Shown piece by piece: positions 1,359-64,000 of a stretch of DNA of 64,000 bases (positions within the stretch are counted from its first letter, which is position 1; every line of letters starts with the position of its first letter). The notes beneath the pieces are model-generated. The model was not told the origin of the DNA. It saw only the letters and a list, made by a program, of their open reading frames with translations, and did not search any database. Both the position numbers and the translations under genes were made by a program. Source of the stretch: Gilvimarinus xylanilyticus. Its GTDB lineage: Bacteria > Pseudomonadota > Gammaproteobacteria > Pseudomonadales > Cellvibrionaceae. Location of the stretch: the NCBI RefSeq assembly GCF_024195295.1, contig NZ_JAMFTH010000002.1, positions 186,001 to 250,000 of the forward strand. Direction: 5' to 3'.

Positions 1359-1392
1359 ACTGGCCTCTTATCGTTATGTCTTAGGGACAAGC

Positions 1393-2160
1393 CTACCACC
1401 AAAAATTAACCAGTGTGTTGACATCATCCAAGGATTCCACGTTGTGCCACCAGTTTTTAGGAATATACAGCGCGTCTCCCGGCGTCAGGGTATAGGTAAG
1501 GGCCTGTGCCTGGGCAGTGGCGTACCGAGGGTATGTTTGTAGATCGGGCTGAGCAACATCCACCCGGCTAACAGGTCGGCCCGCCGGAGTTTGCGGCAAC
1601 TGGGCGATATACAAATTGGGCTCTTGCTCGGGCGCGAACAAGGTAAAACGGCGGCGCCCGGACACCACACAAGCGACATTATCATTTTTGTCGTTATGAG
1701 TTGGCACAACTACGCGGTTCCCCAGCCATATATTGGAAACGGCAGACTCGGGAATGCCCGATAACCGGCAATATTTTTCTAAGCCCGGAAGATAGTCAGC
1801 GATTGAGTTGGCCCCCAGATAAAAGGTCGGGCTTTTGGAATTATTCTGCTGAGATGCTAGATATTCCAGAGCGTCCGTCAAATAGCCGTTCATGCGGGTA
1901 AAGTTAAAAGCTTTAAAGTCGCGCCGGTAGAAGATACGGCCACGCTCTTCGGGCCGGGCAATCATGGCTTGGAATACAGCCCTTTGATCAAAGCCACGCA
2001 AATAGTCAAAATACTCCGGCACGCTTTGCTCGGCTTTTTGGACAATCTGCCAGTAAGAGACTAGCCGGGGCAATAGCACTGGCTGCATCGGCCTGCTGGC
2101 CAGAAACGCACTGATATCAATGCCTGACTGCCGGTTATCTACGGCCGCAGAGAAAGACAT
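1393..2160 (-). CDS. Cupin-like (JmjC-related, cupin_8) protein
   Basis: 255 aa, no signal peptide. The C-terminal half shows a JmjC/cupin_8 metal site: His155 and Asp157 in the segment PTHNDKND, and His239 in PKNWWHNVE, the usual HxD...H triad of Fe(II)/2-oxoglutarate oxygenases. GDALYIPKNWWH is the typical last strand of the family. Relatives include protein hydroxylases and demethylases. In TBDR/halogenase loci of Cellvibrionales, Alteromonadales and Caulobacterales this family recurs beside halogenases, with unknown role. The gene lies 169 nt after the TBDR stop, separated from it by a 14-bp stem hairpin, and has its own AAATATAAA element upstream (2231-2239). The ATG at 2160 is preceded by a weak AGGTG. 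Whether it hydroxylates a protein or a small molecule cannot be told. Confidence 0.85.
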   Translation of the reverse strand: MSFSAAVDNRQSGIDISAFLASRPMQPVLLPRLVSYWQIVQKAEQSVPEYFDYLRGFDQRAVFQAMIARPEERGRIFYRRDFKAFNFTRMNGYLTDALEYLASQQNNSKSPTFYLGANSIADYLPGLEKYCRLSGIPESAVSNIWLGNRVVVPTHNDKNDNVACVVSGRRRFTLFAPEQEPNLYIAQLPQTPAGRPVSRVDVAQPDLQTYPRYATAQAQALTYTLTPGDALYIPKNWWHNVESLDDVNTLVNFWW

Positions 2161-2230
2161 AAACGCACCTGTTTATGATTAGATAAAAGCGCCAGTCACA
2201 CGGCTAACGCTGCTATTATTTTTATGACGT

Positions 2231-2239
2231 TTTATATTT
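2231..2239 (-). promoter_or_regulatory. AAATATAAA promoter-like element upstream of the cupin_8 gene
   Basis: Minus-strand AAATATAAA, 71 nt upstream of the cupin_8 start. The same 9-mer occurs in longer form upstream of both TBDR genes (5574-5582, 59415-59423) and of the surface lipoprotein (61312-61320). TATAAA inside it is a plausible sigma-70 -10. It is AT-rich, so a chance match is possible. Confidence 0.35.
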
Positions 2240-2240
2240 A

Positions 2241-2280
2241 CTTACGACAATGCCCGGCGCAGGCCAGGCATTGTCGTAAG
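2241..2280 (-). terminator. 14-bp perfect stem hairpin between TBDR and cupin_8 genes
   Basis: Arms 2241-2254 (CTTACGACAATGCC) and 2267-2280 pair perfectly around a 12-nt loop. No T-run follows on the minus strand, so it may stabilise the TBDR mRNA 3' end or attenuate read-through rather than act as a full intrinsic terminator. Confidence 0.55.
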
Positions 2281-2329
2281 CAAAGCGCCCCACCGACCAC
2301 TGGGGCCGATGAGTCGCTGAGCTAATCGC

Positions 2330-5300
2330 TTAGAAAGTATAGCGCGCGCCAATATTGTAGCGTGCGTAACCTTCGTAGTAACCCACAATCTGATTAGTAC
2401 TGCGGCTATAGTTACGGCCATTTTCTTCGGTCAGATTTAAACCTTCGAAGAATACCGACAAATTATCGGTAAGATCGTAGCTGACGTTCATATCGATCTG
2501 ACTGTACTCATCTACAAACAAAGGACTATTGTACAAGCCACCTTGGCCTACCGCCGCCAGGAAGCTATCACGCCAATTGTAGGCAATACGTGCTTGCAAA
2601 CCATGCTTGTCGTAGAAAGCCACTAGATTAGCCGTATCACTTAAACCGGTAATAGGTGTCTGAGCCGCGCCTAGATCCATCAGATCATAACCGATGTTTT
2701 CATCCACCATGGTGTAGTTGGCAATAACACCAAAGCCAGTCTCACCAAAGGTGTGCTGAATATTGGCCTCAATACCATCAATAGTTACTTCACGATCTGA
2801 ATTAAAGAAGGTGTTGTAATTAACCGTTGCGTTAGGATCTTCCCCAGGAATACCGACGATAATAAGATTGTCGTTAGCATCCATATACGCGGTGTTCGGA
2901 TCAGCAAAGTTGTCATAAATATACTGGCGAATAGCGCCGGCGTCGCTGGGCGCTATACCCGAATCAATTGCCGCCTGAGCACGCAAGCCATCGGGATCTG
3001 CCGGGTTGGGGGTATTTTCCAGAGGTCCATCAACTGTGTCAGTGGTAGAACTAATAAACTTAGACACGTTTTTACGGAAATACCCGACCGATGCGTAGCT
3101 TGCATCGTCATAGTACCACTCTAGCGACAGGTCAATATTATCTGACTGATAGGGTTCCAGCGCCGGGTTACCCGCCGATGCACTCACGCCTTCAAGACCG
3201 GCCTGCTCGTTGTAGCTATCACCCACCAATTGCAGCCAATCCGGACGAGCAATGCTCTCGCTGTAAGAGGCTCGAACGGTCAGGTTTTCCAATACATCTA
3301 AACGCAAGTCCAGTGATGGCAAAATAAAGTCGTAACTGCCTTCAGCATCAACCGTGCGTGCACTGCCATCTACCGGACGCATATAGATTTCGTTATTAGA
3401 AACCCAGCGCAGCGGCTGATAATCAAACGCTGTATAGGGGGCCGCAACTTCGGTTTCTTCGTAGCGCAAGCCCGCATTGGCGTAGAAGGCCATGCTACCG
3501 ATATCGGTGGTAAAGTTGGCTTGCACAAAGGCACTGTTGGTAGTCTCGATAATCTGCTGGAAGGTGTCCGGCTCGGCCGAGCAGTACCAGGTTGAACCAT
3601 CGGGGCAGCTGGCTTTGCCGTTGCCGTCACGATAGTTTTCCGAGGCGAAATCGCGCAGTTTATAAAAGTCGGCTTCCCAGCGCTGGTTAATCACTTCGGT
3701 GTTGCTACCGCCCAAATAGCTGATTTCTTCCTGGCTGGTTTGGCCAAAGGAGCCTGAGAAATGATCCTTAATGGTCGCCGCGGTAAAGAACTCTTCGGGA
3801 ACATCACCGGGCGAGCCCAAACCTCCCCAGGTATCGCGTAGGTTATCGGAGAAGCCAGAGTTAAACTCGCCCTCGGTCCAGGCCACACCAAAGTCAACAT
3901 TCAACTGGTCGTTAAACTCCCAGTTACCGTCAAACTGAACTTGTTTAATATTGTGTTCGGAGTGGCTCTCGCGGAACCAGCTGCCCGATACCTGTAGATC
4001 TTGCAGCAGAATGTCCGAGCCACCTTGGCTGTTGGTTAAATCAAGCACCAGCCCAGGCACCTCGCCGCGGGTATTGAGCGTGGTGCGATCGCGCGAGTAA
4101 GAGGTCACCGAAATACCCGAACTGTTGCCGTAGGGACTGTCGGGGCCCAGCTTTGCTTCAGAACTGTGAGCATCTAACGACAAGGTCAGTGGCTCAATGG
4201 GGTTCCACTCAATGTTCAGACCGATCGAGTTGTTTTCGGCGCGGGTTTTCTCAACCCCCACACCCATAGTCAAGTCACCGTTTTCGCCGCGCTCGGAGTA
4301 AAGCTCGGGGGTTTGTACGCCGGGTGAAGGGTTATCAGTAAAGACGGTATCCTGACCGCCCCAACCAAACCAAGCACCCAAATCGTGATAAGTTTGCGAG
4401 AATTCATTTTCGCTGTAGGTGTAATCCACCGTGGCGGTCAAATCATCGGTGGGGGCAAACTGTAAGGTCAGCTGGCCGTTGGTGCGGGTGCGCTCAAACT
4501 CGCCAAACTGGTAACCCACCTGCTGGGGCACGCCGTATACATCGCCATCTTCGGGCTGATTGCGGTGGGTGCCACCCAAAAAGTCGATACCACCCCATAA
4601 GAAGTCGACACCTTCCTGGCCGCCCCAGTCCTGTACTACCGAGCCCGGAACGCCCGTCCAGCCGCCGCCATTGGTGGCGTTGGCGAAGCCGCCTTGACGC
4701 TCTTGGTAGCTGCCGGTTACCGCGACGCCGATTTTGCCGTCGGCGAACGAGTTGCTGTAAATACCGGAGATTTCGGGCGTTATTTCAGAATCGGGCGCCG
4801 ACTCGTCCCAAACGCCTTTCACACCGATGGATGCTTTGGAATCAATTTCCAAAGGCTTGGGGGTTACAATGTTAATGGTAGCGCCCATACCGCCCGAGGG
4901 CACATCCGAGCGGGAGGTTTTAAACACCTCTACCGCCTGCACCCCTTCCGAGGCGAGGTTGCCAAAATCAAACGAGCGCGAACCAGACGCATAAGTGGCG
5001 CCAATGGTCGCACCCGGCATTTGCCGACCATTAAGGGTGACCAAGTTAAAGTCTGGGCCGAGGCCGCGTACGGTTACCTTTGAGCCTTCACCGTTTTCAC
5101 GGCTGATGGACACACCGGTAATACGTTGCAACGATTCGGCCAGGTTGGTGTCCGGGAACTTACCGATGTCTTCGGCTGAGATGGCATCCACCACACCACT
5201 GGTGTCTCGCTTCATATCCATCGAGCGCTCGAGACTGGCGCGAATACCGGTGACAACAACTTCTTCCAGCATCCGATCTTCACCGGCCTGGGCGGGGCTA

Positions 5301-5395
5301 TTCTGCGCCAAGGCGCTCGCGCTGAACGCCGCCATTGCCGCAGAGGCAACTGCGGACGCGATAAGTTTACGTTGGAAATTCTGCTTTGCTTTCAT
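2330..5395 (-). CDS. TonB-dependent receptor, Xanthomonas/Caulobacter large subfamily
   Basis: 1021 aa outer-membrane active transporter. Residues 1-30 are a Sec signal peptide ending ASALAQ. A TonB-box-like EEVVVTG follows, then the plug domain (VDAISAEDIGKFPDTNLAESLQ, RITGVSISR, VRGLGPDFNLVTLNGR, GATINIVTPKP) and a long beta-barrel ending in the aromatic motif NIGARYTF. The plug wording is typical of the large TBDR subfamily that imports oligosaccharides or other complex organics in Caulobacter, Xanthomonas and Cellvibrionales. The ribosome site GAGGATC lies just before the ATG. It heads a minus-strand unit with cupin_8 and halogenase genes. It has a long leader with a shared promoter element (5564-5582). 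Ligand unknown; a plant or algal glycan is an inference from context. Confidence 0.95.
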   Translation of the reverse strand: MKAKQNFQRKLIASAVASAAMAAFSASALAQNSPAQAGEDRMLEEVVVTGIRASLERSMDMKRDTSGVVDAISAEDIGKFPDTNLAESLQRITGVSISRENGEGSKVTVRGLGPDFNLVTLNGRQMPGATIGATYASGSRSFDFGNLASEGVQAVEVFKTSRSDVPSGGMGATINIVTPKPLEIDSKASIGVKGVWDESAPDSEITPEISGIYSNSFADGKIGVAVTGSYQERQGGFANATNGGGWTGVPGSVVQDWGGQEGVDFLWGGIDFLGGTHRNQPEDGDVYGVPQQVGYQFGEFERTRTNGQLTLQFAPTDDLTATVDYTYSENEFSQTYHDLGAWFGWGGQDTVFTDNPSPGVQTPELYSERGENGDLTMGVGVEKTRAENNSIGLNIEWNPIEPLTLSLDAHSSEAKLGPDSPYGNSSGISVTSYSRDRTTLNTRGEVPGLVLDLTNSQGGSDILLQDLQVSGSWFRESHSEHNIKQVQFDGNWEFNDQLNVDFGVAWTEGEFNSGFSDNLRDTWGGLGSPGDVPEEFFTAATIKDHFSGSFGQTSQEEISYLGGSNTEVINQRWEADFYKLRDFASENYRDGNGKASCPDGSTWYCSAEPDTFQQIIETTNSAFVQANFTTDIGSMAFYANAGLRYEETEVAAPYTAFDYQPLRWVSNNEIYMRPVDGSARTVDAEGSYDFILPSLDLRLDVLENLTVRASYSESIARPDWLQLVGDSYNEQAGLEGVSASAGNPALEPYQSDNIDLSLEWYYDDASYASVGYFRKNVSKFISSTTDTVDGPLENTPNPADPDGLRAQAAIDSGIAPSDAGAIRQYIYDNFADPNTAYMDANDNLIIVGIPGEDPNATVNYNTFFNSDREVTIDGIEANIQHTFGETGFGVIANYTMVDENIGYDLMDLGAAQTPITGLSDTANLVAFYDKHGLQARIAYNWRDSFLAAVGQGGLYNSPLFVDEYSQIDMNVSYDLTDNLSVFFEGLNLTEENGRNYSRSTNQIVGYYEGYARYNIGARYTF

Positions 5396-43380: not shown

Positions 43381-44169
43381 TTAATCCAGAGTCCCGGCAT
43401 AGGCTTGTATTTGCTCCAGCATGGCGTCACTTCCGGCGTTGCGCGCCACCCACAGACGTGCCAGTCCGGCCTCGCGGGCCAGCTGGGCCACTCTGTCACC
43501 TGGCACTAAAAACGTCCGCTCGCGCAACAGCGACTGGGTTTCAGTGCGGCGCGCCAAGTCCAACAGGTTCGTCAGGCTTTCGCCGCTGTGCACGGTAATT
43601 AAATCGGTGCTCTGACCGGCCTCAAGCCACTGTTTTACACGGGGCGCGCTTTGTGCGGGTAGAACCCTGCGGTAGAGCTCGCAGTGCTCGACCCGGGCGC
43701 CGCGCTCGGTTAGGGTCCGGGTCATCAACTCGCGGCCACCCTGACCGCGAAATATCACAATTTTTTCGCCACTGACATTGCCCAGGGCACGACTGGCCAG
43801 CAAGTGCTCACTGTTCATGGCGCTGCGCTCGTCGCCCAGTGCCGCAACCGGCAAATCTAGCGGATCCAGCGCATCGGCGGTTGCCCGCCCCACCGCCAGG
43901 CATTGGAGGCCGATAGGCCACTGGGGCCAATAGTCTTCCAGCCATTGTGCGGCATAGTGTACGGCATTGCGACTGACGAAAATCGCCTTTTGGTACTCAT
44001 CAAGGTTCATCACCACCGACTTAATACGCTGCTCACTGTCAAAGTCGTCCAGTGCCTCCAAGGCCATAACGGGTATGGCCTGGGCATCATAGCCCTGACG
44101 TTGCAACCAGCTTTGCCACTCATCCGCCAACGGCTGAGGACGGGTCACCAGTATTCGCGCAGCGGTCAT
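43381..44169 (-). CDS. hemD: Uroporphyrinogen-III synthase
   Basis: 262 aa. Cyclises hydroxymethylbilane to uroporphyrinogen [21 protein letters not shown] at the N-terminus, [26 protein letters not shown] and [32 protein letters not shown] at the C-terminus give the HEM4 fold. Starts on ATGA shared with the hemC stop, so translation is coupled. Part of hemC-hemD-hemX-hemY. Confidence 0.94.
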
Positions 44170-45113
44170 TGCAGCTCGCGCCCGTAAACCTCGGCGAGAA
44201 TTTTATCGGCACCGGCGGCGAGCAGGCGCTCTGCCATTGCCACCCCCATGGCTTCGGCACTCTCTAACGGACCGCGATCTTCTTCGCTGAGCATGGTTTT
44301 ACCATCGACCGAGCCCACCAGACCGCGCAGCCACAGCCCGCCAGCCTGTTCGATGGCGTAGCAGGCGATGGGCACCTGACAGCCGCCTTCCAGGCGCCGG
44401 TTCATGGCGCGCTCGGCTTCGACGCACACGGCGGTAGGGGCGTGGTGCAAAGGCGCTAACAGCTCGCGCAGCTGGGTATCATCGGTGCGGCATTCAATAC
44501 CCACGGCACCCTGACCGCCCGCCGGCAGACTGACCTCGGGGGCCATGTAATCGGCGATGCGCGCTTGCAGTTCCAGCCGGATCAGCCCCGCACTGGCGAG
44601 AATAATGGCATCGAACTCACCGTCGTCCAGTTTGCGCAGGCGGGTCTGGACATTGCCGCGCAAGAACTTGACCTCTAGGTCGGGGCGGGCCGACAACACC
44701 TGGCACTGACGACGCAAGCTTGAGGTGCCTACCACACTGCCGGCGGGCAACTCGTCCAGATTGTGAAAGCGGTTGCTGACAAAGGCGTCGCGAGGATCTT
44801 CGCGCTCGCAGATAACCGCCAGCCCCAAGCCTTCGGGAAACTCCATGGGCACATCTTTCATTGAGTGCACGGCGATGTCCGCCTCATCCGCCAGCATGGC
44901 CTGCTCCAACTCTTTGACGAACAGGCCCTTACCGCCCACCTTTGCCAGGGGTACATCCAGAATTTTATCGCCGCGACTGGTCAACGGTACCAGCTCGACC
45001 GCCAGGCCCGGGTGATGCTTTTCCAACTCACTTTTAACGTATTCGGCCTGCCACAGGGCCAGCAAGCTTTTGCGGGTGGCGATGCGGATGGTGCGCGAGG
45101 GAATTGAGTTCAT
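44166..45113 (-). CDS. hemC: Porphobilinogen deaminase (hydroxymethylbilane synthase)
   Basis: 315 aa from the ATG at 45113, with AGGAG upstream; a longer frame to 45263 lacks family residues. Polymerises four porphobilinogens. Motifs: [18 protein letters not shown], the signature [15 protein letters not shown], and the dipyrromethane-cofactor Cys in [12 protein letters not shown]. Heads hemCDXY, 52 nt after algR on the same strand, the pseudomonad arrangement. Confidence 0.98.
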
Positions 45114-45165
45114 GGTACTCCTGTCGAGGCTATAAATAGGCCATGATAGCAAAGCTTGGGGGTGA

Positions 45166-45888
45166 CTACAGACTTTGCAGCAGCGCTTTAACCGCACTGG
45201 CATGACGGCGGCTGACCGCGGGCTTGTGCTCGCTGTCGCGCAGGCAAATACAGTAGCCACCATCGGCGCAGCGCTCGAGCGCCTGAATATGCTCGACCAT
45301 CACCAAAGCGTTGCGGTGCACCCGCACCACGGCACTACCCAACGTTTGCTCCAGCTCCTTGAGCGTGTTATCCAGCAGATGCTGCCCACCGGTGTGGTAG
45401 ACGGTCACATATTTTTGGTCAGCGTGAAAATAGCGCACATTGCGAAGAGGAATGCGCTCTAAACCCTTATGGGTTTTGGCGGTAATACTGCCGGGCAAGC
45501 CGCCCGCAGGCGCCGAACGCTGAACTTTATTGGGCTTACCGGCTTTATCCAGGGCCTTTTGCAAGTCGTCACGACGCACCGGCTTTAGCAAATAGCCCAC
45601 GGCCGTAGTGGAAAAGGCCTCTAACGCATGTTGATCATAGGCGGTACAAAAGATGACGGCCGGGGGATCATCCAGCTCGCCAATTTGTTGCGCCGCCTCC
45701 AGGCCATTGCCACCGGGCATTTGAATATCCAAAAGGACAATGTCCGGATCATCCCGCTCGATAGCCTCCAACGCCTTGGCGGCCGTGCCCGCCTGAGAGC
45801 TCACTTGATAGCCCTCCAGATCCTGAATCATTCGCTCCAATCTGGCGCGCGCCAGAGGCTCATCGTCGACCAGCAAAACATTCAGCAT
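45166..45888 (-). CDS. algR: AlgR-type LytTR response regulator
   Basis: 240 aa. Receiver domain with phospho-acceptor Asp54 in [17 protein letters not shown], acidic pocket VDDE at the N-terminus, Thr in FCTAYD and Lys in LLKPV. The C-terminal LytTR DNA-binding domain is [17 protein letters not shown]...[18 protein letters not shown]. In Pseudomonas AlgR controls alginate, pili and virulence; here it is paired with the kinase AlgZ gene upstream. Followed by hemC. Target genes not deducible. Confidence 0.92.
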
Positions 45889-51168: not shown

Positions 51169-52686
51169 CTAAGTTCCCGATGATTGGGCAGCACACTGTT
51201 GGGCGATAAAATCGCGATGCAAAGGCATATACTCGACCGAGCGATGAATCACCTCGCGAATACTCGCTAGCCGCTTCTCGATTTCCTGGGCCGATAAAGT
51301 ATCCACAATCGGATGATAGGCTCGCGGCCGCAACCCCTGACCGTGCATTACCTCAAGCCAGCTCAAATCGTTAAACAACTCTTCATTGGTGCGAAAAATT
51401 CGGCCGTTTTTCTGATACTGATCGATCTTTTGTTGCAGAGTGTCGGGGATGGACATAGTGCGGCAATAATTCCAGAATTCGGAATCATCCCGGCGGGTAA
51501 TACAATAATGGGCAATCAAGAAGTCGCGAATTCGCTCGTACTCAAAATCCACTTGGCGGTTGTACTCGTCGATGTCTTCTTGATCGAAGTAGCGATTGGG
51601 GAACAGGCTCATCAATTTGGCAATGCCCGACTGTACCAAGTGAATACTGGTGGATTCCAAAGGCTCCATAAAGCCACTGGCCAACCCCAGAGCGACACAG
51701 TTCTTATTCCAAAAGCGTTTGCGCTTACCCGTGGTAAAACGCAATAACTTGGGATCTGCCAACGGCTCACCGTCAAGGCTATCTAGCAGTATTTGCGTCG
51801 CTTCGTCATCGCTCATAAATTGACTGCAATACACATGGCCGTTACCGGTGCGGTGTTGCAGCGGAATACGCCATTGCCAGCCGGCGCTCTGCGCAGTTGA
51901 GCGAGTGTAAGGAATGGGATCAGCCACCTTAGCGCAGGGCACGGCCACGGCGCGGTCGCAGGGCAGCCACTGACTCCAGTCCTCGTAGCCGGTATGCAAG
52001 GCCTGTTCAATCAGCAATCCCTTAAAGCCGGAGCAATCAATAAAGAAATCGGCCTCTAGCGTATCCCCATCATCCAGAGTGACCGACTGAATAAAACCGT
52101 CATCGGGGCGCAGGGTGACATCGGTAATTTTCCCTTCGCGCCGAGTTACGCCTCTGTCCATGGCAAAATCGCGCAAGTACATGGCGTAGAGGGCGGCATC
52201 AAAATGGAAGGCGTAGGCAATATCCGACAAAGGTGAATTGCCCGCGTCTACCGGACGCATAAAACGCCCCTGCTTGGCGGCAAGGCAGTTAAGGGTATAC
52301 TGATCAATATCGGGCGCTTTGCCTGCCTGAAACATTTTTAGCCAGTAGTGATAAAACTGCACGCCCTCCATATCTTTACCCACGCCACCAAACGCGTGTA
52401 GATATTTCTCGCCAATATGGCCCCAGTTAACAAACTGAATACCCAATTTAAAAGTGCCCTGGGTTTTGCGCACGAATTCATTTTCATCCAATCCCAGCAT
52501 TTGGTTAAACAGCTGGATCTGCGGAATCGTCGCCTCACCCACGCCTACGGTGCCAATGGCATCGGATTCAATCAGCTGAATGTCGCAATACTGATTTTTT
52601 AGCACTTTTGCCAGCGCCGCAGCCGCCATCCAGCCGGCCGTGCCGCCACCGACAATCAATACTTTTCGAATACGGTTATCCGTCAT
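51169..52686 (-). CDS. Flavin-dependent tryptophan-halogenase family protein, third gene of the operon
   Basis: 505 aa. FAD motif [31 protein letters not shown], catalytic Lys80 in [12 protein letters not shown], WxWxIP at residues 270-275 ([18 protein letters not shown]), and [15 protein letters not shown]. It therefore keeps all catalytic elements of the halogenase family. The ATG overlaps the end of the upstream paralogue by 11 nt. This gene is closest in sequence to the first-locus halogenase ([17 protein letters not shown]). Substrate unknown; family members in TBDR loci have been found to halogenate free indole, but the natural target is not known. Confidence 0.95.
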
Positions 52687-54157
52687 TATTTTGCTTAAAC
52701 CTCGTTGTGGTGGGGTCTTTAAGTACAGCCTCTAAAAAGGGCATAGTATCGGCTTCGCGCTCCAGAGTCTGGTAGATAGCTCGATGCTTTTGCGCCAATT
52801 GTTTAGGATCGATGTTGGCTAAAGTCAGATCGTAAGCTCCCGCATGCCAACCCAGCCCCAGCGCCAGTGAGAGCCAAGCCTCGTCAGCCAGCACCTCCTC
52901 ATCCCGGCGCCAAAGGCGGCCCAGGCGAGTAAAAACATCCAAGCGCCACTTTAAATCCGCAGGAAGATCGGCATGAGCACATTCGACTCCCGCGGCGTGC
53001 ATCCAGTGTACTTCGTTAAGTCTTTGATACAACAAACTGCGGCGGCGGTTATATTCTGCTCGCAGGTGCGTCTGATCACCCCCACTGGGCAATAACTCAA
53101 GCCACAGCAAAAGACAGCGACAAGCCCAATACCACTGCGATAACACCAGCTCGCCCGGTTGAGCATCGGCGCCCCCCAAAGCCAAGCAGTTGTAAACCCA
53201 GCCTTGTGCGCGTGCGCCCTCGGTTTGCTGCCAGCTAGCGAACTCGCAACCTTGTTCGCGCAGTGAGGCTTCAAGGCGATCCAGCGCCGCCTGATCACAG
53301 AGCCAGGCATCCACTATGGTTTTATCCCGCAACCCCGCCCGTCGTCGCCAGCCGCCCGCTATTCTCGCAAACTCAGAGCGTGGCTTGAGTGGAGATTCTG
53401 CCGGCTCGGAAAAGGTAATCCGGTAGGGCCACAATGATCGACTCTGCGCTTGGAATTCAACGCCCAAAGCTTGCCCTAGAAGGCGCGAGGACTCGCCAGT
53501 GGCGTCAATAAAAAAGTCGGCCTCCAGTCGTATACCGCCATCCAATGACAACGCCTGGATACCGCGCTGAGGATCACCGTGCACTTGCAGCGAATCAGTG
53601 CTCTGGCATACCACTCCCAGATTTTGCGCATGAGCCGTAATAGCCTCAACGAGCGCAGCGCGCTCTAAATGCAAACCGTATTTAAGTGTGGAGCGAGCCG
53701 ACCGCGGGTCCTTTGCGGGAAAGGCAAAGCGTGCCTTAGCCGCCGCACGAGTCGCCAAAAAGTGTTCGCTAAAGGCGAGCTGCTCCGGCCCCGAAAAGCG
53801 TTTAAAGAACTCCTGTTCGAAAGGCGCCGGAGAGGGCTGAATACCGTGACTTGCGTGAGGTACAAAAAATTGCTTTGACTCTAACCGATATTCGGCACCT
53901 AAGCTATAAAGGCCCTGACACTGATGCAGCAGCTTGGCTTCCGGCAATCCGATCATTTCGAGCCAGCGACCCAATGCGGGATCGGCCACTTCCGCCCCAG
54001 CGATACCAGCTTTATTCGTCTCAGTACTCACCTGAACCCAGCTAATACGAGTCGCAAAAGGCCGCAACATTTTCGCTAAGGTTACCGCCGCACCCGCGGC
54101 TACCAATCCCTGCCCCACGACAACAATATGCTGTAAGGGCTCAGGTTTATGATTCAC
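52676..54157 (-). CDS. Degenerate halogenase-family flavoprotein (middle gene)
   Basis: 493 aa from a GTG with GGAGG upstream. It is clearly a halogenase-family relative (FAD motif [45 protein letters not shown]), yet key elements are gone: Ser85 stands where the catalytic Lys would be (GLYSLGAEY), VGVGEATIP is replaced by GIAGAEVAD, and the WxWxIP motif is replaced by GGWRRRAGL. It probably cannot halogenate. It overlaps both neighbours by 11 nt, which suggests strict co-translation. It may be a partner subunit, a flavin supplier or a repurposed oxidoreductase; no evidence decides. Confidence 0.88.
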
Positions 54158-55682
54158 GGCCGCCTCCGTAAAGATTCATGGCGGCAGGCGGCTCGCGCTT
54201 AAGACCGCCGCGCGCGAGTACTTCGGCATGCGCGGGCGCCCGCTCAGCCATTGTTTGCAGCTGAGAGGCTAAACCGTGCAAGGTGCGCGCGACTTTGTCG
54301 GCGGACACGGACGCCGCACGGGAATCCCAACCTAAGGGCACCAAGCCCTGACCGAAATACACAGCGAGCCAACTGGGCTGGGCAAATAAACCCTGATCAT
54401 AGTGCTGAACCACAGCTGATTCACGAAACAATTCAATTTTTTCCTGCAAACTTGCGGGTATATTCATATCGGCACAGTAGCGCCAGAAGTCCGAATCTTG
54501 CCGACGGTTAAGATGATAGTGCAAAACTAAAAAATCCCGCACCCGGCGATATTCCATGCCCATCCAGCGGTTAAACGCCTCGCGACTTATGTGCTCGTCG
54601 GCGTCGGGAAAGAATTCTACCAACTTAACAATTGCCATTTGAATGAGATAAATACTGGTCGATTCCAAGGGCTCCAGGAAACCACTTGACAAGCCAATCG
54701 CGACGCAGTTTTTCTCCCAGCTGTGAGTACGATACCCGGCCTCAAACTGAATGAAATTGGGGTCGGACAAAGGCGCACTGTTAAGCGCTCTTTGCAGCTG
54801 GGCGCAAGCTTCATCGTCGCTAATACACTCGCTGGAATAAACCTGGCCGTTACCCGTGCGATGCTGCAAAGGTATACGCCACTGCCAACCACTGGCAGTG
54901 GCGCGAGAGCGGGTATAAGACGGCAGCGGCGTTAAAGGCTCGGACGCCTGAGCGACCGCACGGTCGCATGGCAGCCATTGGCGCCAGCTTTCAAAGGAAA
55001 CACCCAAAGTTTTACCCAATAACAGTGAGCGAAAGCCCGAGCAATCGATAAATAAATCGCCCTCAATCACCTCTCCCGATTCCAACACTAACGCCGCTAT
55101 GCGTCCATCATTCGGAGCGGTTGTAACCCGTTCTACTTTTCCTTCGCGTCGCACTACCCGACGCGCCTCGGCATAGCGGCGCAGAAAAGACGCATAGGCG
55201 GTTGCATCCAGATGGTAGGCGTAGCCATAGCCCAAACCCGGTTCATCGGGTGGCGGAGCGAAGCGATTGCCACGGGCTAACTGCGCGGCTAAAGAAAAAT
55301 CATCCAGCGCAGCGTTCGAACCGATTGCGCGAGCCGTTAGAAAATGGTGATGAAAATCCACGCCGCCTAAGTCCGCACCAAAGGCGCTAAAAGGATGCAT
55401 ATAACGGCTGCTAGCGTTACCCCAACCTGTAAACTCGATGGCCAGTTTATAGGTCGCCTGAGTCTCGCGCATAAAGTCACGCTCGGGAATTCCCAACAGC
55501 TGATTGAAGTAGCGTATGTGGGGAATGGTCGCCTCCCCAACGCCGACCGTGCCAATTTGCTGCGACTCTACTAAAGTCACCTTGCATTCGCTGGGCAGCA
55601 AGCGTGCGAAAGCCGCAGCGCTCATCCAACCTGCCGTACCTCCACCGACAATGACTATCTTTTTAGCGAGCGGGCTCGCCAT
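54147..55682 (-). CDS. Flavin-dependent tryptophan-halogenase family protein, first gene of the operon
   Basis: 511 aa. FAD motif [35 protein letters not shown], catalytic Lys79 in ATYKLAIEF (the same residue number as in PrnA/RebH), WxWxIP at 266-271 ([12 protein letters not shown]), Glu340 in [14 protein letters not shown]. All elements of an active halogenase are kept. GGAGACACTCT ribosome site. It starts 138 nt after the TBDR stop, beyond a terminator hairpin, with a 10-bp palindrome ACACCGGTGT (55730-55739) between, so it may have its own promoter. Translationally linked to the degenerate paralogue. Confidence 0.95.
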   Translation of the reverse strand: MASPLAKKIVIVGGGTAGWMSAAAFARLLPSECKVTLVESQQIGTVGVGEATIPHIRYFNQLLGIPERDFMRETQATYKLAIEFTGWGNASSRYMHPFSAFGADLGGVDFHHHFLTARAIGSNAALDDFSLAAQLARGNRFAPPPDEPGLGYGYAYHLDATAYASFLRRYAEARRVVRREGKVERVTTAPNDGRIAALVLESGEVIEGDLFIDCSGFRSLLLGKTLGVSFESWRQWLPCDRAVAQASEPLTPLPSYTRSRATASGWQWRIPLQHRTGNGQVYSSECISDDEACAQLQRALNSAPLSDPNFIQFEAGYRTHSWEKNCVAIGLSSGFLEPLESTSIYLIQMAIVKLVEFFPDADEHISREAFNRWMGMEYRRVRDFLVLHYHLNRRQDSDFWRYCADMNIPASLQEKIELFRESAVVQHYDQGLFAQPSWLAVYFGQGLVPLGWDSRAASVSADKVARTLHGLASQLQTMAERAPAHAEVLARGGLKREPPAAMNLYGGGRES

Positions 55683-55819: not shown

Positions 55820-58800
55820 TTAGTAAACAACCTTCAAGGTCAAAGCCAGACGGCGATCGTTGATAAACCATGAACGACCGGTCTCGCGACCATTTTCATC
55901 CAGAGTCATCAGCGTCTTGGTCTGAGTGTCGAGCAGGTTCGTGGCCTGCAGCCCCAAGGTGACATAGTCATTCACCGTATACTGAACCGAGCCATCCAAG
56001 AAGCCTGCGTCGTCATTCCAGATCGGCTGACCACTGATCACATCACGCGTGGTAACCAAGTACTTAGAACGCCAGTTATAAGCCAAACGCGCTGACCAAT
56101 CGAACTTCTCGTACATTAACACCAAGTTGGCCGTGTGCTCTGACTGACCGCGCAGTGGCAAGCCTTCCAGCAAGCTTAAGTCAACGGTTTCCAAGCCCGG
56201 TTGTGGCGTATCTGGACCGCTATCATCCAGGTCGTCCTCGGTGGTGGCATCGGCGCTACTGGTAAAGTTAGGCACACCTTCTGAATCGATAAAGGTGTAG
56301 TTTGCCTGAATACCAAAGCCATCGAATGGCTCGGGCAGCATATCGTAAAACTGCTGATAGGCAATCTCGATACCCTGCATCTTACCTTCTTCACCGTTGC
56401 GGGTGGTGGTGAAGTCAACGGTTTGACTAACACCCGTGGTGGGGTTGGTAAAGGTTCTAGGCAACGCACCCTCAATAAAGAAGTTGCTCAAGTCTTTATA
56501 GAAGATACTGGTGGTCAGCGAGCCAACCGGCGCAAAGTACCATTCCAAAGAGGCATCGTACTGAATCGACTCCATGGGTTGCAGCGCGGGGTTACCACCA
56601 CTACCAGTCCAAACTACGTCGTCTACCGACAGAATGTTTACGCCACCATCAACCGGACCCGGCTCGACAATCTCGCTGGTATCGGTTTCGCGATTTACCA
56701 CGAGCTGACGCGCACCCAGTACCGCCTGATTACGAACTTCAGACATGTCGGGCATGGCGATAGCTTTAGCCACCGCAAAGCGACCAATCAAGTCGTCGGT
56801 AAGCTCCACTTTTAAGTTCAAGCTGGGCAACACTCCGTCCCAAGAGGTACTGCTTTCTTGGGTTTGATCCGCATCGTTACCAAAACCCTGCTCGGTTTCC
56901 GACAGCCAGTTGTTGGCATCGCGAGAGTATGCCATTAACTGGTTAACCTGGTCCAACCACTCTTGCTCGCTGGGGAACAGACCGGGATCAAACGGACCCA
57001 CTTCCTCTTCGGCCCACTTGCGGATAGCACCGCTATCGGATAAATCGGTAGGTGCGCCTTCTGGGTAATCCTGGCCGATCATGTCTGGGTACTGAATAGA
57101 GCCCAGAGCGTCGCGTTCCAGTTCTACATAGCGCAGACCAATATTACCCGAGAAACGCAGAGCAAAATCGTCCGAGCCAAAGTCCAAGCGCACATAGGCG
57201 GCCTTGTTAGTTTCGGTGGTATCGTAAATTTCCGCATCGGAGAAGTAAGAGCCGTTTTGCGCCTCGGGGCGCAAGTTTGCGGGCTCCCAAATACCCTCGG
57301 CCCCTGGGTTAGCCTGAGGTACCGTGCGACCGTCAATGACTTCTTTCAGGAATTCTTCCTTGGGAAACAAGAAGCCATCACCCGGAATATTGGCAACACC
57401 ACCGCGGTGGAAATCGGACCAGTCGATATACTCGTAAGCATCGCTCAACTCTTCGGTTTCGGACAACCAGAGAGCACCGTCACCCGCGTTGGGCGCCCAT
57501 TCAGCACCGATACTACCCCAGTTGTAAGGCGTGGTACGCACAACCTGATTGCGGTCAGCAAAACGAACCCCCGCTTTTACAGAGCGCAGCAAGTGGGTGT
57601 CATCGAAGTAATGTGTCGCATCAAAGCGAACCGCTTTTGACTCACCTTCGGAACGCTCGTAGTGGTCCATCGCCGAACGCCACCAGTAACTGTCGGGGTC
57701 CTGGAAGTAGTTGGCATCGCCCTGCGGGTCATTGGAAAAACCTGGGAAAAGAGGCTGATCTTCTTCGCCCAGCTCAGGGTAATAATCAGCGTTAACCCGG
57801 TAATAATCAGGATTCGCGTCACGGCGACCATCCCATGGCTCGATTACATTTAGCCAAGGTTTGTCCCCATCGCCTTGTATGGCGAACTGCTGCAAGGCAT
57901 AAAAACCATTAGCAATCTGCAAATCATCATCTTCAGTGGTGGCTTCCACTAACTGGAAATCACCCTCGAACTCCCACGAGTCGCTGGGCATCCACTTAAT
58001 ATTAAAGCTCAAATCATCAACAATGGTGTGAGTATCTTTAAAGCGTGTGTCTGCTTGATACTTTTGCCCGAAGTAGTCGTTTGAGGTGACGTAATCGTCT
58101 GGAACATCACCTTCGCCACTCCAGCCGCTAGGTACACGACCTTCACCACCGCGCCAGCCGCCGCCGTCGACAATATAACCCTCTTGGAAGATACCCATAT
58201 CATCCCAGCCAAACTCGGTACCCGGGTATGGGCGAGCGCGGCGGGTTTCACTGACCGAACCATCGTCATTTTCGTCGCCGTAACCACCCTGGTACTTAAT
58301 GGCATTTTCTTTCCAGCTCAAACGCGCATCGGAGCGAATAAATTCTGCGGTTGCTTCCCACTCATCATTAGGGCTGGCCCACTGAAAGGATGTGGCCAAA
58401 CCTTTACGCACACGATCGTCTTCTTTGGTGAAGAAGTTGGAACCATTGGTCATCCATACCTGGTTATCTTCATCGGCAACGCTAGAAGGTGCGCCCAGAG
58501 TATCGGCATTGTATTTAACGAAAGCGTCACTCTGAATACCGTTAGATTCACCCAGAAGCTCAGAGTAAGAGGCGTTAATCAAAAAGCCAAACTCACCCAA
58601 ATCCTCGGTGTCCCAGCGGTTGCTGTACAGACCCGAGAAGGTGGGCGAAGCCTCTTCGGCCATGTCGCCGTAGGAAACATCACCGGTAAAGGCGATCATT
58701 TGCCCATCTTGGTCAAATGGCTTACGAGTCTTAAGGCTGACCGTACCGCCAATACCACCTTCGATCATGTCAGCGGTCTGGTTTTTGTACAGATCCACAC

Positions 58801-59254
58801 CCGACATTAGCTCGGGCGGAACATCCTGGAAATTAAGACCGCGACCGGAGTTCGCGGTGAAGGAGTCACGACCGTTAAACTCGCTTCGCGTGGCACTCAT
58901 ACCACGGATAACGGCGCCACTACCCTCAACCCCGAAGTGATCCGGGTCTTCCGGTGCCGCAAAGCGTTCAATCGAAACGCCTGGCATACGTTGCATTGCT
59001 TCCAGAACACTGCGATCCGGCAGCGAACCAATATCTTCTGCCGAAATAGCATCGACAAAAGTATCTGCATCCCGCTTAATGTCCTGGGCATTTTGCAAGT
59101 TCTGGCGAGTGCCACTAACGACAATCTCTTCCAGAAGCTCATCTTGTGCTGGCGCCTCTTGCGCCAGAGTGGGTGTTCCCATTGCCATGACACACATGGC
59201 AAGCATGGACTTTTTGAATGGGACAACTTTCTTGTTGTTGTCGCGATAAACCAT
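55820..59254 (-). CDS. TonB-dependent receptor, Xanthomonas/Caulobacter large subfamily, second locus
   Basis: 1144 aa, larger than the first. Basic N-terminus then a Sec signal (SMLAMCVMAMGTPTLA), TonB box area EEIVVSGTRQNLQNAQ, plug motifs VDAISAEDIGSLPDRSVLEAMQRMPGVSIERF and GIGGTVSLKTRKPFD, and a very long barrel with many Asp/Trp/Gly loops, ending RRLALTLKVVY. The plug is clearly related to the 1021-aa receptor. Heads the halogenase operon locus. Shares the AAATATAAAGANTTTTAGC element in its leader (59405-59423). Substrate unknown; xylan- or glycan-derived ligands are a guess from the neighbouring xylA. Confidence 0.95.
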   Translation of the reverse strand: MVYRDNNKKVVPFKKSMLAMCVMAMGTPTLAQEAPAQDELLEEIVVSGTRQNLQNAQDIKRDADTFVDAISAEDIGSLPDRSVLEAMQRMPGVSIERFAAPEDPDHFGVEGSGAVIRGMSATRSEFNGRDSFTANSGRGLNFQDVPPELMSGVDLYKNQTADMIEGGIGGTVSLKTRKPFDQDGQMIAFTGDVSYGDMAEEASPTFSGLYSNRWDTEDLGEFGFLINASYSELLGESNGIQSDAFVKYNADTLGAPSSVADEDNQVWMTNGSNFFTKEDDRVRKGLATSFQWASPNDEWEATAEFIRSDARLSWKENAIKYQGGYGDENDDGSVSETRRARPYPGTEFGWDDMGIFQEGYIVDGGGWRGGEGRVPSGWSGEGDVPDDYVTSNDYFGQKYQADTRFKDTHTIVDDLSFNIKWMPSDSWEFEGDFQLVEATTEDDDLQIANGFYALQQFAIQGDGDKPWLNVIEPWDGRRDANPDYYRVNADYYPELGEEDQPLFPGFSNDPQGDANYFQDPDSYWWRSAMDHYERSEGESKAVRFDATHYFDDTHLLRSVKAGVRFADRNQVVRTTPYNWGSIGAEWAPNAGDGALWLSETEELSDAYEYIDWSDFHRGGVANIPGDGFLFPKEEFLKEVIDGRTVPQANPGAEGIWEPANLRPEAQNGSYFSDAEIYDTTETNKAAYVRLDFGSDDFALRFSGNIGLRYVELERDALGSIQYPDMIGQDYPEGAPTDLSDSGAIRKWAEEEVGPFDPGLFPSEQEWLDQVNQLMAYSRDANNWLSETEQGFGNDADQTQESSTSWDGVLPSLNLKVELTDDLIGRFAVAKAIAMPDMSEVRNQAVLGARQLVVNRETDTSEIVEPGPVDGGVNILSVDDVVWTGSGGNPALQPMESIQYDASLEWYFAPVGSLTTSIFYKDLSNFFIEGALPRTFTNPTTGVSQTVDFTTTRNGEEGKMQGIEIAYQQFYDMLPEPFDGFGIQANYTFIDSEGVPNFTSSADATTEDDLDDSGPDTPQPGLETVDLSLLEGLPLRGQSEHTANLVLMYEKFDWSARLAYNWRSKYLVTTRDVISGQPIWNDDAGFLDGSVQYTVNDYVTLGLQATNLLDTQTKTLMTLDENGRETGRSWFINDRRLALTLKVVY

Positions 59255-59532: not shown

Positions 59533-61227
59533 TTACTCGATAGTAATCTGGCGCAACAAAATAGGCTCGCCTTCTTCGCGAGTCGTCAAGCCAGCACCTT
59601 GCAGCTTAATACCCACACGATGAGCGGTTGGCTCGGTAGGTACACCTTCAAACGCTTGCTCGAAACGGTACCAGCCGTCACCCAAGTCTTCACCCGCACT
59701 CAGAGCAAGGAAGTCACCGTAGATACCCTCGTAACCGCCCTCATTTTGCTGAATATAAGGCTGAATTTGCATGCCAGGATTTTCAGTCAGATAGTAGTCG
59801 CTTATGTACAACTCAAACCCAACAGTGGCGCCTTCCAAATCTGGCAACTCATCAGCGGCTGCCACATACATAACAGTACGCTCGTCGCTGTCTGTTGCCT
59901 GCCAATTGGGATCGATCTGCAAAGCGCCGGTGTCGCTATCAATCGATAAATCAGGCGCACCCTCTAAGCCCTGCCAGTTGTCGTTATCCCAAGTGCCAGC
60001 ATCAAGATCTTCTTGCGTAGGCACCAAAGTAAACGGACCACTATCGCCACTTGAGGTGGTGATATTGATCTGCATGCTGTTGATGGTGACACGGCCAGCC
60101 ACTTCGTTTTTAACCTGTAGACCGACGCGAATATTCTGTCCTTCTTCGGCGATAAACGCTTCGTTTTCAGTGGCGCAGTTAATTTCGTAGGGCTCACCTG
60201 CAGTCAGTGATCCGTTACCCACATAACAACCGAACTCACCGGTATAACTACCGAAGTTTTGTTGAATAATTGGCTGAACATCAGCGCCTGAATCTTTAAA
60301 CGCCTGATCCACAGTAATAGTCATATCAAAGCTGCGGCCCACTAGATCGGCTGGACCTTCCAGCAGATAAACCAGCTTCTGATCGGCTGCGGTAGGCTCG
60401 TAGTAGACGCCAGTGTCATCGGTCTGCACGGTAACGCCATCGGTGGCATCCATTACCGTCCAAGCCGGATCATCGGCTTCAACGACCAAAGGACCACCCG
60501 CGCCAGAGGATGGAGTCAGCGTGACGTTATCGAACCAAAGGGGACCTGCGACCTCAGGTGCTTTACCGTTAGCCACCAAGCGAACACCCACCTCGTTGAT
60601 ATCACGCAGCGAGAAGCCTTCGTCGTGCCAGGCAAAGGTGCCATAGTCAACCACAGGCTCGCCTTCAACGACTTCGGATTCGCCGGTACCGGCAGCCAGC
60701 TCCCACATTTCGATGCGGTTCCAACCCGCCTCTGCGGGGTAAGGGCGACTTACACCTTTAAGGCCCGAGGCGTTGCTCAGCAACAGGTGCATGGTCATAT
60801 TGCCATCGCTCGCATAAGCATCGGTGACATACACCCAGATGCTGGCAGCCGAACCGGCCATATCGTCGACTTCGTCAACCGCACCGTAAATGTCCAGTTG
60901 GTCGGCGTCGCTCGCCCAGGTGGGCTCTGCCACCAGAACTTCCTCTGTGCCGTTCCAGCTCATACTCGCGGTCGCGTTACAGCCGTTCGCACAGGCGCTC
61001 ATCCAAGCGTCAATGTCGGCTTCTTCATCAAAGGGGATATAGGTATAGATTTTTGGCTCACCCGGCTCAAAATCACCGTCGCCACCATCGCCGTCGCCGC
61101 CATCACCGTCACCATCTCCACCGCCGTTATCGGGTGGCGGCGCTGTGCTTGGCCCCAAGTCTACATCTCCGCCACAGGCAGAGAGCACAAATACTGTGCA
61201 TAGCGCGATAAGCAGTTTTTGTAACAT
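59533..61227 (-). CDS. Modular surface lipoprotein with repeated beta-sandwich domains
   Basis: 564 aa. Lipobox LSAC (Cys18), then a Pro/Gly/Asp linker (residues about 27-53). Three beta-rich blocks follow: about 58-245 (IPFDEEADIDAWMSACANGC...AGPLWFDNVTLTP), about 250-400 and about 405-564. Blocks two and three share the segment QPIIQQNFGSYTGEFG / QPYIQQNEGGYEGIYG, pointing to a duplication. Layout resembles carbohydrate-binding jelly rolls and no catalytic motif is seen. Between a large TBDR and xylA, it probably sits on the cell surface and captures oligosaccharide for import. GAGGG ribosome site. Ligand unknown. Confidence 0.75.
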   Translation of the reverse strand: MLQKLLIALCTVFVLSACGGDVDLGPSTAPPPDNGGGDGDGDGGDGDGGDGDFEPGEPKIYTYIPFDEEADIDAWMSACANGCNATASMSWNGTEEVLVAEPTWASDADQLDIYGAVDEVDDMAGSAASIWVYVTDAYASDGNMTMHLLLSNASGLKGVSRPYPAEAGWNRIEMWELAAGTGESEVVEGEPVVDYGTFAWHDEGFSLRDINEVGVRLVANGKAPEVAGPLWFDNVTLTPSSGAGGPLVVEADDPAWTVMDATDGVTVQTDDTGVYYEPTAADQKLVYLLEGPADLVGRSFDMTITVDQAFKDSGADVQPIIQQNFGSYTGEFGCYVGNGSLTAGEPYEINCATENEAFIAEEGQNIRVGLQVKNEVAGRVTINSMQINITTSSGDSGPFTLVPTQEDLDAGTWDNDNWQGLEGAPDLSIDSDTGALQIDPNWQATDSDERTVMYVAAADELPDLEGATVGFELYISDYYLTENPGMQIQPYIQQNEGGYEGIYGDFLALSAGEDLGDGWYRFEQAFEGVPTEPTAHRVGIKLQGAGLTTREEGEPILLRQITIE

Positions 61228-61763: not shown

Positions 61764-63098
61764 TTAACGAATATAACGATTGATAATATTTTCGTACAAT
61801 TCCTGCTGACCACTCACTTGAGCGGGTTCACCAGCGGCATTACCGATAGCCGCCAAAGCTTCTAGACTGAGGTCACCCGCCTCAAACTTAGCGCCGTCAC
61901 CTGAATCAAAGGTCGCGTAACGCTCTTTACGCATTTGCTCTAGGGGTGACTTCTGCAGAATATCGTCGGCAATAATCAAGGCGCGGGCAAACACATCCAT
62001 ACCACCAATGTGGCCGTGGAAGGTATCAACCAAATCGGTAGAGTTGCGACGGCGCTTGGCATCGAAGTTAACACCGCCACCGGCCCAGCCACCGGCACGC
62101 AGTACAACCAACATCATTTCCACGGTCTCGTTAATGTTGTAAGGGAACTGGTCGGTATCCCACTGGTTCTGATAGTCGCCGCGGTTGGCATCAATAGAAC
62201 CCAACATGCCGGCGTTGGCGGCCACTTGCATTTCGTGGTCCATGGTGTGGCTAGCCAAGGTGGCGTGGTTGGTTTCAATGTTCAGTTTAAAGTCCTTGTC
62301 CAAACCGTGATGACGCAAAAAGCCAATAACGGTTTCACTGTCAAAGTCATACTGGTGCTTGGACGGCTCCATGGGCTTGGGCTCAATCAGGAAGTTACCT
62401 TTAAAGCCATTGGCGCGGCCGTAGTCGCGGGCCATGGTTAAGAAGCGCGCCATGTGCTCTTGCTCGCGACCAATGTCGGAGTTAAGCAGACTCATGTAGC
62501 CTTCACGACCACCCCAGAATACGTAGTTCTCACCACCCAGAGCGATAGTCGCGTCGATGGCGTCTTTTAATTGCGCACCGGCGTAGGCCACTACGTTAAA
62601 GTCGGGGTTGGTTGAAGCGCCGTTCATAAAACGCGGATTGGTGAACAGGTTAGAAGTGCCCCACAAAAGCTTCATACCCGAAGCGTCTTGCTTTTCTTTG
62701 GCCCACTCTACCCACTGCGCCAGGCGCTTGCTGAAAGCGGCGCGACCGTCATCACCCTCTTCAACCACATCCACATCATGGAAGCAGTAATAAGGAGTAC
62801 CCACTTTGGTAAAGAACTCAAACGCAGCATCAAGCTTCATGCGCGCGCGAGTCTCGGCATCTTTCCCTTCGTTCCATGGGAAGATAAAAGGTCCTGGACC
62901 GAAAGGATCGTGACCGGCGCCGCAGAAGGTGTGCCAGTAACAAGTGGCAAAGCGCAAATGGTCTTTCATGGTTTTACCGGCGACTACACGGTTCTCGTCA
63001 TACCACTTAAACGCCAGAGGATTGTCGGACTCTGGGCCTTCGTAGGCGATCTTGCCGACACCTTTAAAATATTCTTTATCTCCGATGAGTACACTCAT
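61764..63098 (-). CDS. xylA: Xylose isomerase
   Basis: 444 aa, the longer group II size. Turns xylose into xylulose with two Mg/Mn ions. Motifs: [40 protein letters not shown] with the catalytic His, [37 protein letters not shown] and [23 protein letters not shown] precedes the ATG. Xylulose then enters via a kinase (not in window) and tkt. It follows the epimerase gene on the same strand, spaced 65 nt, and precedes the lipoprotein and TBDR, a probable xylose/xylan-use locus. Confidence 0.97.
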
Positions 63099-63163: not shown

Positions 63164-64000
63164 CTATAAGCCGTAGGCGCGTACACCAAAAACGCCGCTA
63201 AAAGTCTGGCCGGGCTCTAGATTTACCAAGCCCTCACCAGTATTAAATGCATCGATACCGCAGCTCATTGGCTCGACCGCTAGCGACTTGCGATCGGGCG
63301 ACGTGTACACCTGCATAAAATTCATTCCCCGGTTGCCAGCCCGCTGCCACAACTCCAGACCAAAACCGGCCCGCTCGCTGTCAAAGCGCGCTGATACTCG
63401 ACCACTTTGGCCATCCAGTACAAAACAGTTGTCCAGCTCAACATCGGCGAGGCTCGCGCCCTCGACAAACCGAGTATCCGGTTCGCTTTGCCCTGTGGGC
63501 AGCATGCGCTCATCCACCAAAGTGCGCCGCGCCGGCGGCAATGCCAACCGACAATCATCCAGTGCAACCCCCAGCGAGAAATACGGATGCCACCCCATAC
63601 CCACTGGAATTGTATGCGTGCCTTGGTTTACCACACTCATACAAACTTCCAGCTCGCCTTCGGGGTAGAGCACATAGTCCAGCTGCACTCGCGCCCTAAA
63701 AGGGTAGCCGGGCTCCGAGCCATCGAAAGCGTAGACCAAACTAACCGAACTCGCCCCCTCTACTAAAGGCCCTTCTGTCACTTGCGCCTCGGCGCGATAC
63801 AAAAAACCATGCAGAGCGTTACGCAAAGCCGGCTCATTGAGGTCAAACTGATAGTCGCGCCCTTCGCACCGGTAGCGACCATCGCGCAAACGATTGGGGA
63901 AGGGGAACAACACCGCACCGCGAAAACCCGGATTGGCCGCACATTCGTCACGACCAATTCCCGCGATCACATCGCGCGCGCCCGCCCGCGTGGGCAGAAC
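63164..64000 (-). CDS. Aldose 1-epimerase family protein, 5' end outside window
   Basis: At least 278 residues, open to the window edge; an in-frame GTG at 63970 exists, but frame continues upstream (VLPTRAGARDVIAGIGR) as in relatives, so the gene starts beyond. Interconverts alpha and beta anomers of aldoses, feeding xylA. LFPFPNRLRDGRYRCEGRDYQF, LHGFLYR with a catalytic His, GMGWHPYFSL with the second His, and VEPMSCGIDAFNTGEG with the Glu give the galactose-mutarotase fold. Directly upstream of xylA, so co-transcription is likely. Confidence 0.92.
   Translation of the reverse strand, partial: VLPTRAGARDVIAGIGRDECAANPGFRGAVLFPFPNRLRDGRYRCEGRDYQFDLNEPALRNALHGFLYRAEAQVTEGPLVEGASSVSLVYAFDGSEPGYPFRARVQLDYVLYPEGELEVCMSVVNQGTHTIPVGMGWHPYFSLGVALDDCRLALPPARRTLVDERMLPTGQSEPDTRFVEGASLADVELDNCFVLDGQSGRVSARFDSERAGFGLELWQRAGNRGMNFMQVYTSPDRKSLAVEPMSCGIDAFNTGEGLVNLEPGQTFSGVFGVRAYGL

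Follow-up and report, generated by a model that had tools for sequence, protein, structure and literature searches.

Why would a bacterium keep a halogenase lacking its catalytic motifs between two intact ones? The question was raised by a 64,000-nucleotide stretch of the Gilvimarinus xylanilyticus genome (contig NZ_JAMFTH010000002.1, positions 186,001 to 250,000; hereafter the window), in which three open reading frames (ORFs) of the halogenase family lie on the minus strand and overlap by 11 nt at each junction. Gene A (54147-55682, 511 amino acids (aa)) is an intact halogenase with Lys79 at the catalytic position and a match of 587 bits to the Pfam model Trp_halogenase (PF04820). Gene B (51169-52686, 505 aa, Lys80) is a second intact halogenase, scoring 687 bits. 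Gene D (52676-54157, 493 aa, GTG start) lies between them and is a degenerate protein of the halogenase fold, with Ser85 at the lysine position. The full halogenase motif set was present in A and B, both of which read GWQWRIP where D read GGWRRRAG. A preliminary description of this DNA had claimed that the outer genes kept the catalytic Lys and WxWxIP, that the middle gene had lost both together with VGVGEATIP, and that it was full length; alignment and the single 493-aa frame of D bore this out. We found that D is a member of an old, fast-changing family of catalytically degenerate halogenase look-alikes encoded, in many proteobacteria, directly behind one type of intact halogenase (the A clade), which suggests a halogenase built from two proteins.

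The A/D overlap (54147-54157, minus strand, GTGAATCATAA) is likely to couple the translation of the two genes, and a GGAGG found by eye 5 nt before the GTG of D (54163-54167, minus strand) is the probable ribosome-binding site of D. The D/B overlap (52676-52686, minus strand, ATGACGGATAA) has the same length. The equality of the two overlaps was real in the window and did not hold as a general feature of both junctions: the 11-nt A/D overlap was found again in two relatives (L030 and L033), where relatives of the window's D have a B gene (five cases), the D/B junction ranges from 0 to +53 nt, and the equality is thus partly coincidence.

We further investigated if the pairing of A and D extended beyond this locus. 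In total, 45 full-length D genes were collected. They occupy 44 loci of 43 genomes or records and represent 22 coded genera and one metagenome-assembled genome (MAG). Pair counts and trees drew on ORFs of the halogenase family no shorter than 420 aa, so that D pieces at locus ends (L072, L075, and L172), of 368 aa (L130), or in fragments (L167) were set aside. All 45 full-length D genes had an intact A-clade halogenase directly upstream. Conversely, all 47 A-clade genes were followed by a D-like sequence, of which 45 were full length, one was short (368 aa, L130), and one (L167) was broken across reading frames, as was B in that region. B, an intact halogenase directly downstream of D, was present in 33 of 45 cases. 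The junction was 0 or negative in 41 of 45 A-D pairs versus 14 of 33 D-B pairs. This count assumes that each gene begins at its earliest possible start codon; overlaps are lengthened as a result, and the two most extreme values, -265 and -232, must be artefacts. With the same assumption on starts, the overlapping or abutting A-D junctions fit the co-translation proposed in the preliminary description. Based on the pairing and junction counts, A-D is the core unit and B its frequent company. Such strict genomic pairing with one intact clade is what a pseudoenzyme partner would be predicted to show.

Twenty of the regions were mostly picked for a degenerate neighbour or a halogenase cluster already seen, and the less biased counts came from 40 regions fetched by their match to A and from scans of three genera with the Pfam model. 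The 40 regions, from which the last dozen or so listed matches were left out, contained 17 A-clade genes, each with a D-like sequence behind it that was full length in 16 cases. Across the 19 genomes of the three genera, 17 of 17 full-length low scorers among the matches listed stood directly downstream of an intact halogenase. In the window's genus (eight genomes), all ten full-length low scorers (57-257 bits) were the middle gene of a same-strand triplet, with one or two such middles per genome and many other family members at 353 bits or more, among listed matches covering part of the 164 found. This count leaves aside two matches to shorter frames, 79 and 365 aa long, and a set of matches at 42-56 bits (protein length 416-448 aa), which fall mainly on profile positions 152-387 and look like another kind of flavoprotein. 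In a second gammaproteobacterial genus (two genomes), both low scorers were directly downstream of a high scorer, one of them in a triplet. A genus outside Gammaproteobacteria (nine genomes) carried five low scorers in five genomes, all directly downstream of a high scorer and four in triplets; the profile scan found no D in its other four genomes. With two D proteins at 330 and 370 bits, this genus shows that the score gap between D and intact members is not absolute. In the window's own genome, 18 proteins matched the Trp_halogenase model, and among those of at least 490 aa D scored 153 bits and the rest at least 376. The five close relatives of the window's D (in genome G003, G. algae, G. 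agarilyticus, Marinimicrobium agarilyticum, and M. alkaliphilum) were 42-73% identical to it, and the six loci including the window were organized as A-D-B in five cases and as A-D in M. alkaliphilum; a further relative in genome G091 (563 bits, L074) was again part of an A-D-B operon. The idea that the middle gene is a local oddity was therefore ruled out by the family scans and the neighbourhood survey, and the preliminary view of D as a conserved family member gained strong co-occurrence of A and D at homologous loci.

To which protein family does D belong? Its match to PF04820 scored 153 bits against a cut-off of 21 and spanned positions 2-454 of the 458 in the model, and neither the window's D nor any of ten divergent D proteins had another Pfam domain above cut-off. 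The AlphaFold2 (AF2) model of the window's D, predicted as a single chain from an alignment that included intact halogenases, showed a complete fold with a predicted local distance difference test (pLDDT) score of 89.4, and the model of a distant D from an Oceanospirillales MAG reached 89.8. The best match of the former in the PDB was the halogenase BrvH (Foldseek, template modelling (TM) score 0.86, E value 4e-35).

The absence of the motifs, which the preliminary description had left to be overturned by a better alignment, held after the alignment was improved. The catalytic Lys, replaced by Ser85 in the window's D, was kept in 8 of 43 D proteins, and the second Trp of WxWxIP (WRRRAG in the window's D) in two. 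In the flavin adenine dinucleotide (FAD) motif GxGxxG the window's D reads GQGLVA, its last Gly changed to Ala, and this third Gly was retained in 12 of 43. The EPLESTS segment forms the FAD/halide region of halogenases; the Ser of its LES was kept in one D of 43, and four D kept the Gly of VGVGE, which is residue 47 in A. By contrast, the structural residues were largely retained, with the first Rossmann Gly present in 42, Asp213 in 39, and Gly330 in 42 of the 43. A conservation profile was built after thinning the sequences at 60% identity, which left 29 A, 41 D, and 14 B. Over residues 41-60 conservation was 0.78 in A and 0.15 in D, and over residues 261-280 it was 0.74 and 0.19, respectively. 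The decrease in D was greatest where catalysis sits, whereas columns G13, N325, G330, and N371 stayed nearly fixed. Because D was initially recognized by its failure in a motif test (Lys, WxWx[IV], GE), the loss of motifs is partly definitional; the single clade formed by D and its position in the operon are independent of that test. Judged from its motifs, D is probably catalytically inactive.

D is under purifying selection in the one species pair where this could be measured. Between the window and G003, the ratio of nonsynonymous to synonymous substitution rates (dN/dS, Nei-Gojobori, dS near 1) was 0.163 in D, compared with 0.095 in A and 0.043 in B; each of the nine remaining pairs had a saturated dS for D. 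Compared to A and B, D is thus constrained to a lesser degree. D formed a single clade in both trees (support 96 and 100), and the A clade had support of 99 in the tree that holds its 47 genes, and of 92 and 88 in two other trees. Over 33 triplets the median pairwise identity of D was 21%, compared with 51% for A and 52% for B. In a tree of 16 operons, eight groupings of D recurred among the A genes; one of them unites an Oceanospirillales MAG with the second G003 operon.

In line with the subunit or partner role suggested in the preliminary description, we propose that D is a pseudo-halogenase: without catalytic activity of its own, it would act as the obligate partner of intact A, a reading to which we give somewhat better than even chances. 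Because D is predicted to have kept its fold, lost its catalytic residues, stands in fixed order with the A clade, and diverged fast, A and D would form a hetero-oligomer. Halogenases of this family make hypohalous acid from FADH2, O2, and halide and hand it to the catalytic lysine. Under the proposed scheme A would carry out this reaction and pass the acid to its own lysine, while D would shape or supply the binding site for a substrate or partner. If that substrate or partner differs between loci, D would be free to diverge fast. B may act as a second intact halogenase of the same pathway, and the receptor encoded upstream of A presumably imports, or helps handle, the compound on which the halogenases act. 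More tentatively, and with somewhat less than even confidence, two-component halogenases would be widespread in proteobacterial receptor loci, the specificity of A being set by a hypervariable pseudo-halogenase subunit D. The physical A-D complex, the inactivity of D, its role in specificity, and the substrate are all parts of the scheme that we infer from the patterns above. If the scheme is true, A-clade halogenases would look weak or substrate-less when assayed alone, and single-protein assays of a clade that always has a dead partner may miss activity. D would moreover be a pseudoenzyme in a family for which we found none described, and one common to gammaproteobacteria and another class of the phylum.

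Several observations weigh against the partner reading. The higher dN/dS of D, obtained from one pair, also fits relaxed constraint, which by itself can speed divergence. The branches of the D clade are long, and long-branch attraction may contribute to its apparent unity. Several of the shared groupings were found among B genes too, and the deeper splits of D were unresolved among A genes; the recurring groupings thus indicate that the operon largely descends as a unit and are not proof of A-D binding. Partial Mantel correlations were weak, at 0.19 for A with D given B (42 of 2000 permutations as high) and 0.35 for B with D given A (5 of 2000), so distances do not single out A as the partner of D. 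Mirror-tree distances, weak and saturated for D, were rejected as proof of binding. Lys was present at its column in the 8 D proteins counted above, and one of the D (L121) also retained WIWRFP, so residual chemistry is possible in some of them. Lastly, FFxPxxxHGI and DPRSxxSTLxYGLHL were invariant across the six aligned D proteins of the window's group and shared with A and B in single residues only, and conserved stretches such as the latter could belong to a new active site.

This last point leads to the main rival of the partner reading, namely that D is an enzyme of changed chemistry, a flavin-dependent monooxygenase or oxidase acting in sequence with A. QhpG, LodB, and GoxB are halogenase-like flavoenzymes that modify proteins; QhpG and GoxB act on a partner protein and are not known to halogenate. 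Models of these two were the sole NCBIfam matches of the window's D, most D proteins kept the first Rossmann Gly and the Asp of the FIDCSG segment, and the subfamily of the window's D has many invariant residues. However, D scored 23.9 bits against a cut-off of 240 for QhpG (NF049967) and 20.9 against 400 for GoxB (NF038174), about a tenth or less of what the models demand, and A and B also matched QhpG. The similarity is weak, and membership of D in either family was ruled out by scores so far under the cut-offs. The third Gly of GxGxxG and the Gly of VGVGE were lost from most D proteins (kept in 12/43 and 4/43), and no single new residue was fixed at the tabulated former catalytic positions. 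We consider changed chemistry unlikely.

Still less probable is a stand-alone D, a binding or regulatory protein such as a substrate sensor or carrier, made together with A and not bound to it. A halogenase fold could conceivably bind a ligand without catalysis, and one kind of AraC regulator was found near 9 of 40 D loci versus 1 of 20 control loci, a difference that was not significant (p 0.14). The constant adjacency to A and the overlapping frames, however, suggest a fixed stoichiometry, and Trp_halogenase remained the sole Pfam domain above cut-off in the window's D and the ten divergent ones. A decaying, functionless duplicate, as fast divergence, the lost catalytic motifs, and the one D split over two frames in a region also splitting B (L167) might suggest, is very improbable, and the pseudogene reading was ruled out by a dN/dS of 0.16 in the one usable pair and by the single, old, mostly full-length clade that spans classes, with a confidently predicted fold and retained structural residues.

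The partner reading was compared with known systems. PrnA, RebH, PyrH, and Thal share fold and Pfam family with D; they have the catalytic Lys, WxWxIP, and the halide/FAD segments intact, all of which D has lost, and we know of no paired degenerate gene for any of them. BrvH (PDB 6frl, Brevundimonas), the closest solved fold to D, aligned with A at 470 bits. Its description (PMC5945002) reports intact catalytic motifs, measured activity on indole, and another halogenase gene upstream of brvH; TonB is not mentioned in the main text. Xcc4156 (PDB 6y1w) and a Pseudoalteromonas halogenase (9luq) aligned with A at 475 and 471 bits and belong to the same broad family, with motifs intact by alignment. 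All three fell outside the A clade, and none of A's three best PDB matches therefore represents it. BrvH and Xcc4156 are two solved relatives of the receptor-linked halogenases, and their descriptions (PMC5945002 and PMC7336383) give the native substrates of both as unknown. The words 'TonB' and 'operon' were both absent from the main text of a flavin-dependent halogenase survey in mSystems, and 'halogenase' from the main text of the TonB-dependent receptor literature examined. Among the matches listed in searches of the open literature, which mostly leave out subscription papers, no title or abstract described D or the A-D-B operon.

Directly upstream of A in the window lies a gene for a TonB-dependent receptor (TBDR) of 1144 aa (55820-59254, minus strand; TIGR01782, TonB-Xanth-Caul). 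A TBDR of at least 800 aa was encoded directly upstream of A on the same strand at 30 of 45 D loci. Beyond the receptor gene, as context outside the core unit, the window encodes a probable lipoprotein, judged by eye from its N-terminus, with a domain resembling carbohydrate-binding module CBM15 (59533-61227, minus strand; CBM_15, 60 bits), a xylose isomerase (61764-63098, minus strand; TIGR02630, 634 bits), and, past the isomerase, an ORF resembling by eye an aldose epimerase (63164-63970). The CBM15-like domain and the xylose isomerase give the window's locus the look of a xylan locus. Near D loci in general we identified glycoside hydrolases (GH3, GH10, GH67, GH115, and GH9), xylose isomerase, an MR_MLE enzyme, and AraC regulators. 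Neighbourhoods were compared for 40 of 43 D regions and 20 of 23 control regions with halogenases and no D, several of them from one genus. Any member of the pooled glycan set (GH3, GH10, GH67, GH115, GH9, xylose isomerase, or MR_MLE enzyme) was found at 18 of 40 D loci versus 5 of 20 controls (Fisher p 0.17). Singly, GH3 was found at 9 versus 3, GH9 at 3 versus 2, GH10 at 4 versus 0, and xylose isomerase at 3 versus 0 of these loci. A D-specific link to xylan loci was dropped, the excess not being significant. Xylose isomerase genes lay near some A-D-B operons, in L182 (2510-3844), L227, and L232 as in the window; the D of L182 (genome G158) is no close relative of the window's D.

Other arrangements of halogenase genes were also observed. 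One locus of G003 (L029, 695-17541) contained two complete TBDR-A-D-B operons in tandem, with D genes of different subclades. In L134, L136, and L137, A-D operons faced a Cupin_8 gene and two intact halogenase genes beside a TBDR gene. A second halogenase operon occupies positions 1-5395 of the window and consists of a TBDR gene (2330-5395), a Cupin_8 gene (1393-2160), and an intact halogenase gene cut by the window's left edge (1-1358), with no D in view. Another divergent class of halogenases carried FKQGx instead of FKLGI and W(T/L)WDIG instead of WQWRIP. Its members in L034 (4568-6100) and L030 (17288-18844) adjoined an ordinary intact halogenase, and the member in L158 (1840-3453) was near a Cupin_8 gene. 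Elsewhere in the window, an ORF of putative porphobilinogen deaminase type (44166-45263) as listed begins inside the neighbouring gene, which its sequence suggests to be response-regulator-like (45166-45888), and a start further in is more likely.

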